Assembly (NCBI RefSeq): GCF_002214585.1
Contig: NZ_CP014862.1
Span: 372,001 to 436,000 of the forward strand
Direction of reading: 5' to 3'
Source: Thermococcus profundus
GTDB taxonomy: Archaea > Methanobacteriota_B > Thermococci > Thermococcales > Thermococcaceae
DNA: 64,000 bases
Position numbers and translations under genes: made by a program. The notes under the pieces are model-generated. The model searched no databases, had not been told where the DNA came from, and worked only from the letters and a program-made list of their open reading frames with translations. Shown piece after piece: positions 30,659-41,218 of this stretch (the stretch's first letter is position 1; every line of letters starts with the position of its first letter).

Positions 30659-31165
30659 TCAGAACTTCACCCACTCAACCTTATAGTAGGTCACATCGGC
30701 GTCTTCGTCAACTATCGCCATGACCATGTTCTTCCTAACGCCGTGGGCGACCCTCACGCGGGCCGTTATGTCGTTCGGACTTAACCGGGAGTTCTCCGGA
30801 ACGACCCAGATGAGCCACTCGGAGTGCTCCTCCATTCCCCTCCGGTACACCCTGAAATGGGAGCCGAACTTCAGGCCGGACTTCACGGTGTATCCCCTAT
30901 CGCGCAGGTCTTTGTAGACGAGGTACTTGGCGTCAAAAAGCTCGTCCTTTGATCTTCCGAGGTTCATCAGCTCCTCGAGCGACAGCTTCCTCTTGCCGTC
31001 TCTGACTTCTATCTTGCCGCGCTCGACCAGATAAGCCGCCTCGAGGAGCGACAGGAAGAGCTTCCCCTCGACGACCTTCCCAAAGTACCTCTTGTTGTAG
31101 AGGCCGTTTATCGCGTTCTGATCCGTTGAAAAGACCCTGTCTCCGCTGAGATAGAAGATCATCAT
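30659..31165 (-). CDS. endA: tRNA-splicing endonuclease
   Basis: A 168-residue protein typical of the homodimer-type archaeal splicing endonuclease. Candidate catalytic residues are Tyr in DLRDRGYTVKSG, His in KFGSHFRVYRRG and Lys in GVRKNMVMA. It cuts at bulge-helix-bulge sites in pre-tRNA and in pre-rRNA, including the rRNA stems found in this window. The start overlaps the rimI stop (TGATGATG), with GGAGGGG upstream. Confidence 0.95.
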   Translation of the reverse strand: MMIFYLSGDRVFSTDQNAINGLYNKRYFGKVVEGKLFLSLLEAAYLVERGKIEVRDGKRKLSLEELMNLGRSKDELFDAKYLVYKDLRDRGYTVKSGLKFGSHFRVYRRGMEEHSEWLIWVVPENSRLSPNDITARVRVAHGVRKNMVMAIVDEDADVTYYKVEWVKF

Positions 31166-31665
31166 CAGTTACCCCTCCATTCGTCCGCTGGAAGGATCAT
31201 GTAGTATGCGTCCTCACCGTCGGAGTAGTAGCCTATGACCCTCTTCACTTTTCTGAAGCCGAAGCGCTCGTAAAGCTTTATTGCCTTTTCGTTGCTCACC
31301 CTGACCTCAAGGCCGATGTACCTTGCCCCGCGGTTTATGAGCCTTTCGATGACCTCCCGCAGAAGGGCGGAGCCTATGCCGTTTCCCCTGTACTCGGGGT
31401 CAACGGCGATGCTCATTATATGGCCTTCCAGATCCGGGCGGAGGTAGCCCATGACGTAGCCGATTATCCTGCCGTTGTACTCAGCCACAAGAAACGTGTC
31501 CGGATTGTTTTCGAGGAAGGTCAGGAATATGCCCCGTGGGTACTGCTCGCGGAAAGAGGCCCTCTCAATTCGCATAACTTCCGGGATGTCAAAGAGCCTC
31601 GCGGGTCTTATGCCAACCATTGCCAGGGGGATTCTTCCGGTTAGCCCTCTGGTGGAGACGCTCAT
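31165..31665 (-). CDS. rimI: N-terminal acetyltransferase (RimI/Ard1 type)
   Basis: A GNAT-fold protein of 166 residues. It shows IRPARLFDIPEVMRIE, the acetyl-CoA loop EYRGNGIGSALL (Q/RxxGxG/A), VSNEKAIKLYERFGF and a Tyr-rich end YYSDGEDAYYM. Archaeal members acetylate N-terminal residues of proteins. A shared TATA element at 31689-31698 lies about 25 bases upstream, so the message may be leaderless. An in-frame ATG near residue 16 (MVGIRPARL) is an alternative start. Operon with endA. Confidence 0.9.
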   Translation of the reverse strand: MSVSTRGLTGRIPLAMVGIRPARLFDIPEVMRIERASFREQYPRGIFLTFLENNPDTFLVAEYNGRIIGYVMGYLRPDLEGHIMSIAVDPEYRGNGIGSALLREVIERLINRGARYIGLEVRVSNEKAIKLYERFGFRKVKRVIGYYSDGEDAYYMILPADEWRGN

Positions 31666-31721
31666 GTATTCACATACGATCGAAGGGCTTTTAAGACTTA
31701 AGGGGCCTTAACTGATGATCA

Positions 31722-31785
31722 CCGTGGGTGATGACCACTCTCGAAGCTGACCGCGGGATGATGACCGGATTCCTGGCTGATAATC
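31722..31785 (+). ncRNA. C/D box small RNA (2'-O-methylation guide)
   Basis: All four boxes are present with correct order and spacing: C box GTGATGA (31728-31734), a 12-nt guide, D' box CTGA (31747-31750), a 7-nt spacer, C' box ATGATGA (31758-31764), a 12-nt guide, D box CTGA (31777-31780). A TATA-like CTTTTAAGAC lies at 31688-31697, about 30 bases before the 5' end. The D guide can pair with 23S rRNA bases 40596-40606 over 11 positions (one G-U). The N+5 rule predicts methylation of G at 40600. The D' guide has only a partial match, near 36757-36765 in 16S rRNA. It should bind L7Ae, Nop5 and fibrillarin. Confidence 0.75.
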
Positions 31786-31793
31786 TTGACCAA

Positions 31794-31823
31794 AATCTTT
31801 AAACGGCTGGACAAATAGTCCAA
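31794..31823 (+). promoter_or_regulatory. Promoter and 17-bp palindromic operator of the ABC permease
   Basis: The TATA box ATCTTTAAAC (about 31795-31804) is followed directly by CTGGACAAATAGTCCAA (31807-31823), in which TGGAC and GTCCA form an inverted repeat around AAATA. The palindrome covers the expected transcription start, 5 bases before ATG 31827, where a bound repressor would block initiation. A closely similar palindrome stands upstream of mmdA at 63151-63167. Confidence 0.55.
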
Positions 31824-35963: not shown

Positions 35964-36475
35964 TCGAGATGCTTCATTCGCTTTTCTCTTTGCCCGTTAT
36001 GGTGTTGGTCCTCTGATCATCCCGGCGAAGCTGGGCAATGCATCATTTGCCGTTGGATGGTTGTGGTTTGCTTTCTAATGTTGCTTCTAGGCTCCCGTTG
36101 CAAAAATTTTGCCGTTTTTATGTCTAAATTTGTGCATTTTGTTGAGGTATTTTAACAGCTTTATTTCTAAAAATATCACCGTATGGAGGTTTTGCAAAAA
36201 TTTTGTACTGGTAGAGTTCAGCCCTATAGGGTGGAGCGCCCGAACAGGGCGCGACGAAACCCGAGCGCCAAGACGGCGGCGTCGGGGGGACAGGGTGCAA
36301 AGCACCCACGATGAACCCCGCCCTCCAGCTCGGGTCACAGCAACGTGCGCTCCCGAGGAAACGCCGAAAGGCGGACCCCTCGGGGGTAAGGCAGGCCCGG
36401 CACCTCGACCAAACCCCGGACGGATATTTGGTACTTCCCCTTGAGGGAAGTCCCACCGGCCGTACTCCTTGCTCA
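35964..36475 (+). promoter_or_regulatory. rRNA operon promoter region and leader (512 bases)
   Basis: No protein gene is supported here. The stretch 36080-36210 is very AT-rich. It contains the 14-base sequence TTGCAAAAATTTTG twice, at 36098-36111 and 36192-36205. Each copy centres on a palindromic CAAAAATTTTG that could act as a TATA element, so two tandem promoters are possible. From about 36225 the sequence turns GC-rich and forms the pre-16S leader, which holds several small hairpins and the left arm of the 16S processing stem (36390-36423). Confidence 0.6.
36390..36423 (+). repeat. Left arm of the 16S rRNA processing stem
   Basis: Bases 36390-36406 (GGCAGGCCCGGCACCTC) are perfectly complementary to 37992-38008 downstream of 16S. 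After a short bulge, CCCCGGACGGA (about 36413-36423) pairs with TCCGTCCGGGG (37974-37984). The two helices separated by bulges form the bulge-helix-bulge motif cut by the splicing endonuclease. Confidence 0.85.

Positions 36476-37961
<1,486 letters not shown>

Positions 37962-38203: not shown

Positions 38204-41218
<3,015 letters not shown>

Follow-up and report, generated by a model that had tools for sequence, protein, structure and literature searches.

A conserved sR5 C/D box guide RNA locus between rimI and an ABC permease gene, with two predicted target sites in 23S rRNA

The intergenic space between rimI and an ABC permease gene in the window (the whole stretch of DNA analyzed, 64,000 nucleotides) was described in an earlier note as the site of a C/D box sRNA. 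This raises the question of whether a guide RNA gene is present and which RNAs its two guides would address. The locus very probably encodes the C/D box guide sRNA sR5, a small RNA of heat-loving archaea, which would be expressed and would pair with two stretches of 23S rRNA domain V for methylation. The RNA is of an already known kind, and the orthologue found here, although real and well conserved, is an ordinary member of a catalogued guide RNA family; its expression, the target of its D' guide in this species, and methylation are what we infer.

Identification of sR5 in the window

The locus was compared across 94 genomes of the family; genus g1 is that of the window, and the codes g2 to g6 stand for further genera of the family. 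The following features were identified:

31725 to 31781, plus strand: sR5 C/D box guide sRNA, match to Rfam RF01304 (cmscan of the whole window, 55.4 bits against a gathering cut-off of 40; E value, 5.9e-10)
31728 to 31734, plus strand: box C, GTGATGA, by direct reading; kept in 74 loci from about 60 genomes
31735 to 31746, plus strand: D' guide CCACTCTCGAAG, 12 nt; GCACTCTCGAAC in most sister species
31747 to 31750, plus strand: box D', CTGA, by direct reading and locus comparison
31751 to 31757, plus strand: D'-C' spacer, CCGCGGG; 4 to 8 nt in the window's genus, 3 nt in genus g3
31758 to 31764, plus strand: box C', ATGATGA, by direct reading and locus comparison
31765 to 31776, plus strand: D guide CCGGATTCCTGG, 12 nt; near-invariant in six genera
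31777 to 31780, plus strand: box D, CTGA, by direct reading and locus comparison

The perfect C-type boxes, the CTGA boxes and the two 12-nt guides reported in the earlier note were thus all found in place, and its assignment to the C/D box sRNAs was borne out by an Rfam score above the cut-off and by conservation of the boxes in relatives. Boxes C and C' fit the RUGAUGA consensus of archaeal C/D box guide sRNAs, boxes D and D' fit CUGA, and the guides between C and D' and between C' and D, at 12 nt each, match the ∼10 to 12 nt of the class. When two C-type and two D boxes were strictly required, with guides of 10 to 13 nt, the pattern had a single match on the two strands of the window (31728 to 31780) and none in 100 order-1 random windows. 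A chance arrangement of boxes was rejected on this result together with the Rfam score. The predicted precursor fold was no stronger than that of shuffled sequences (z between −0.8 and 0.6); no strong precursor fold is expected of C/D RNAs. The ends of the mature RNA likely lie a few bases beyond the Rfam match on either side.

The full RF01304 model was covered, with the likeness extending to the boxes, their order and spacing, and the D guide core. Compared with the Rfam consensus, the D'-C' spacer in the window is 4 nt longer and the D' guide reads CCACTCTCGAAG rather than gcgCCaUcGAAa; both differences are common to the rest of the window's genus. The second-best family, sR7 (RF01310), has the C/D frame in common with the locus but differs in its guides, and its score of 27.8 bits was under the sR7 cut-off of 37. 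RNAs of the same kind have been detected in Thermococcus kodakarensis, where 54 C/D box sRNAs were found (PMC4247193), many of them circular and about 60 to 71 nt long (PMC9014305). Judged from the Rfam matches and the relatives carrying sR5, T. kodakarensis probably belongs to the same archaeal family as the window.

Conservation across the family

The sR5 family cut-off was exceeded in 60 of the 94 genomes, and the block from C' through the D guide to D was identified with at most one mismatch in 62. In the parsed set of 74 loci, which covers about 60 genomes with some counted twice, the boxes were nearly invariant while the D'-C' spacer varied freely. The D guide was almost constant, with an identical core (CGGAUUCCUG) in most genomes of six genera; the D' guide was near-constant inside most genera and different between genera. 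The gene order endA-rimI-sR5 was common to nearly all loci of the window's genus, g5 and g6 and to one g3 locus, and the gene on the side away from rimI changed between relatives. Nearly invariant boxes and an almost constant D guide in a shared endA-rimI neighborhood are what a functional orthologue is expected to show.

In some two dozen genomes of the genus, at loci L043, L041, L016, L025 and others (for example, G018:C1:200756-200767), box C was preceded at a distance of 0 to 4 nt by a perfect palindrome, GGGTGGCCACCC, which often reads GGGGTGGCCACCCC. It had a single genomic occurrence in most of these genomes and was absent from the window's sR5 and from the empty sites inspected. As RNA it could fold into a hairpin of five pairs with GGCC as the loop, and as DNA it could serve as an operator.

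Target of the D guide

The N+5 rule for C/D guides is established (PMC4644070). In all 21 genomes compared, the D guide is complementary to stable RNA in this register; the D' guide is so in part. The following site was identified for the D guide:

40596 to 40606, plus strand: 23S rRNA target of the D guide, with a predicted 2'-O-methyl group on G40600

Pairing at this site comprises 10 Watson-Crick pairs and one G-U pair, with G40600 at N+5, as the earlier note had proposed; the methylation itself is a prediction. The site was the best in rRNA, in the same register, in all 21 genomes examined from five genera. The match alone is not extreme, as 10 of 300 shuffled guides reached the same score in 16S and 23S rRNA, and the strength of this target comes from its conservation in the 21 genomes and not from the match score by itself. 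G40600 faces A2309 of the E. coli 23S rRNA in a MAFFT alignment. The target is invariant and so offers no covariation test.

Target of the D' guide

For the D' guide, comparison with relatives pointed to a second 23S site:

40565 to 40573, plus strand: probable 23S rRNA target of the D' guide, on the 3' side of a hairpin that corresponds by position to helix 81 of E. coli

The N+5 position here is G40567, a predicted site of 2'-O-methylation that is aligned to E. coli G2276 (MAFFT alignment) and lies 33 nt upstream of G40600. Archaeal dual guides usually aim within 100 nt (PMC7994747), and the 33-nt gap fits this habit. The guide GCACTCTCGAAC of the sister species pairs with 40565 to 40574 through nine Watson-Crick pairs and one G-U pair, and the G40567 site ranked top over 16S and 23S rRNA in all five sister species compared. 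Despite different guide letters, the same position also ranked top in g4 (all four genomes) and in g5 (two of four); in the remaining two g5 genomes the site pairs by eye over 11 positions, with a G-U pair at N+5. Guides of g1, g4 and g5 scored 9.1 to 9.8 on the rRNA of their own genus and 4.2 to 5.3 on several foreign rRNAs, an imperfect covariation given that a g4 guide scored 10.1 on g3 rRNA and a g5 guide 9.2 on g1 rRNA. The fit to G40567 fails in g2, where the D' guide is different; in g3 it is poor for 12-nt guides, and 13-nt guides need one bulged A (by eye). Taken across the genera, these sequences make it probable that the D' guide targets 23S 40565 to 40573 and would direct methylation of G40567. 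Neither a published target list for sR5 nor a P. furiosus methylation map was found in the literature searched; RiboMeth-seq data for P. furiosus are deposited as GEO GSE153501 (PMC7758197).

The window's own D' guide differs from that of the sister species at its first and last bases and forms eight Watson-Crick pairs and one G-U pair at 23S 40565 to 40573. Its score of 8.4 was alike at 23S 40567, 16S 36757 and one tRNA, a three-way tie, and was matched by 87 of 300 shuffled guides. Both the tie with a tRNA of the same genome and the frequency of this score among shuffled guides are compatible with a D' guide that is directed at a tRNA or lacks any target, leaving the D guide alone functional, as is the finding that several g3 genomes have no good rRNA partner for it and g2 a different one. 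Such an arrangement is nevertheless unlikely, given that GCACTCTCGAAC scored at most 7.8 on this genome's tRNAs versus 9.4 at the 23S site and that the near-constancy of the D' guide across the genus speaks against its having no target. A tRNA target was rejected as a candidate, no tRNA scoring above the rRNA sites.

The earlier note had left the D' target open, offering a partial match in 16S rRNA and naming a tRNA as another possibility. That match is real, with eight Watson-Crick pairs and one G-U pair and a score equal to that of the 23S site, and would have the D' guide of the same sRNA act in this species on 16S 36756 to 36764, with G36757 at N+5. However, in none of the 20 other genomes compared did this site rank among the three best rRNA sites of the D' guide, the 23S site is top in the sister species, and the methyl position would fall near the end of the duplex. 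Action on 16S rRNA is thus quite improbable, and 23S 40565 to 40573 is the better site on comparative grounds. Changed at both ends relative to the sister species, the window's guide has lost one 23S pair and gained one 16S pair, and a target switch under way, in a genus with repeated guide loss, is conceivable as a long shot. If true, such switching would have one sRNA touch both ribosomal subunits.

Neighboring genes and promoter

The placement between rimI and an ABC permease gene held up in domain searches. The rimI gene beside sR5 is on the minus strand (TIGR01575, 125.8 bits), and the opposite flank carries a FecCD/BtuC-type permease gene (PF01032) with its ATPase gene. The tRNA-intron endonuclease gene endA (TIGR00324), at 30659 to 31165 of the window, adjoins rimI, an adjacency common across the family together with sR5. 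As a distance of 46 nt separates sR5 from the downstream permease ATG, and 5' untranslated regions hold some of the guide-like elements predicted in archaea (PMC4247193), a regulatory leader of the permease gene or chance boxes in place of a guide RNA could be considered, but most relatives keep sR5 despite a different downstream gene, the permease also occupies this position in genomes without sR5, and the Rfam score and conservation make either extremely improbable.

An inverted repeat, TGGACAAATAGTCCA (window 31808 to 31822), was observed immediately before the permease ATG. In relatives with or without sR5 the permease gene is likewise preceded by repeats of this sort (GCTGGACAAAAACTCCAGC and CTGGACAAATAATCCG), and the window's repeat is likely an operator for a metal- or cobalamin-type regulator.

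On the other side of sR5, the following element was identified:

31688 to 31695, no strand: palindromic TATA-like element CTTTTAAG, at −26 of the rimI ATG (31665)

The center of CTTTTAAG is 26 to 27 nt from the rimI ATG at 31665, which is the TATA-to-ATG spacing of leaderless archaeal mRNAs. Leaderless mRNAs account for about 14% in T. kodakarensis (PMC4247193). The element was retained in genomes with rimI but without sR5, and thus gives no support for the sRNA by itself. The upstream TATA-like element invoked earlier is therefore present, but given its rimI promoter position and its persistence without sR5 it was dropped as evidence for the sRNA. It appears to be mainly the rimI promoter and may also start sR5 divergently.

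An H/ACA guide RNA, Pab19 (RF02794, 91.3 bits), was also identified in the window at 36236 to 36339, within the 16S-23S operon leader. Tko-19 of T. kodakarensis has the same placing (PMC4247193).

Absence of sR5 in relatives

Seventeen genomes, 14 of them from the window's genus, lacked a convincing sR5. All 17 carried endA and rimI side by side, with no C/D motif next to rimI, and a search for diverged copies elsewhere in genomes without a match identified none that was convincing up to two mismatches. Both target sequences were unchanged in the nine genomes without sR5 that were checked. A tree of the endA-rimI stretch required at least seven presence/absence changes, a count that cannot separate gain from loss and that comes from a quick method with several weakly supported forks; repeated loss would be the simpler reading. 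With sR5 absent from 14 genomes of the genus, at least seven gains or losses, and targets unchanged in the nine checked, sR5 looks dispensable over evolutionary time.

Model and significance

The transcript of sR5 would form two kink-turn/kink-loop sites, at C/D and C'/D', that would be bound by L7Ae, Nop5 and fibrillarin, which is the known mechanism of this family. Genes for fibrillarin and a Nop domain protein were identified in a search of the genome (E values, 2e-100 and 1e-74). Each guide would pair with its own stretch of 23S domain V, the two predicted methyl sites lying 33 nt from each other. In each stretch fibrillarin would methylate the ribose that faces guide base five, counted upstream from box D (G40600) or box D' (G40567). 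The likeness of the D' guide to the 5' strand of the target hairpin suggests a chaperone-like effect as well, in which the sRNA would hold off the folding of this hairpin until the sRNA is released.

For a guide RNA that was already catalogued, the small added value lies in a concrete, testable pair of predicted methylation sites, G40600 and G40567. The absence of sR5 from 14 genomes of the genus provides, through comparison of close relatives, a natural experiment on the use of a single archaeal rRNA methylation.
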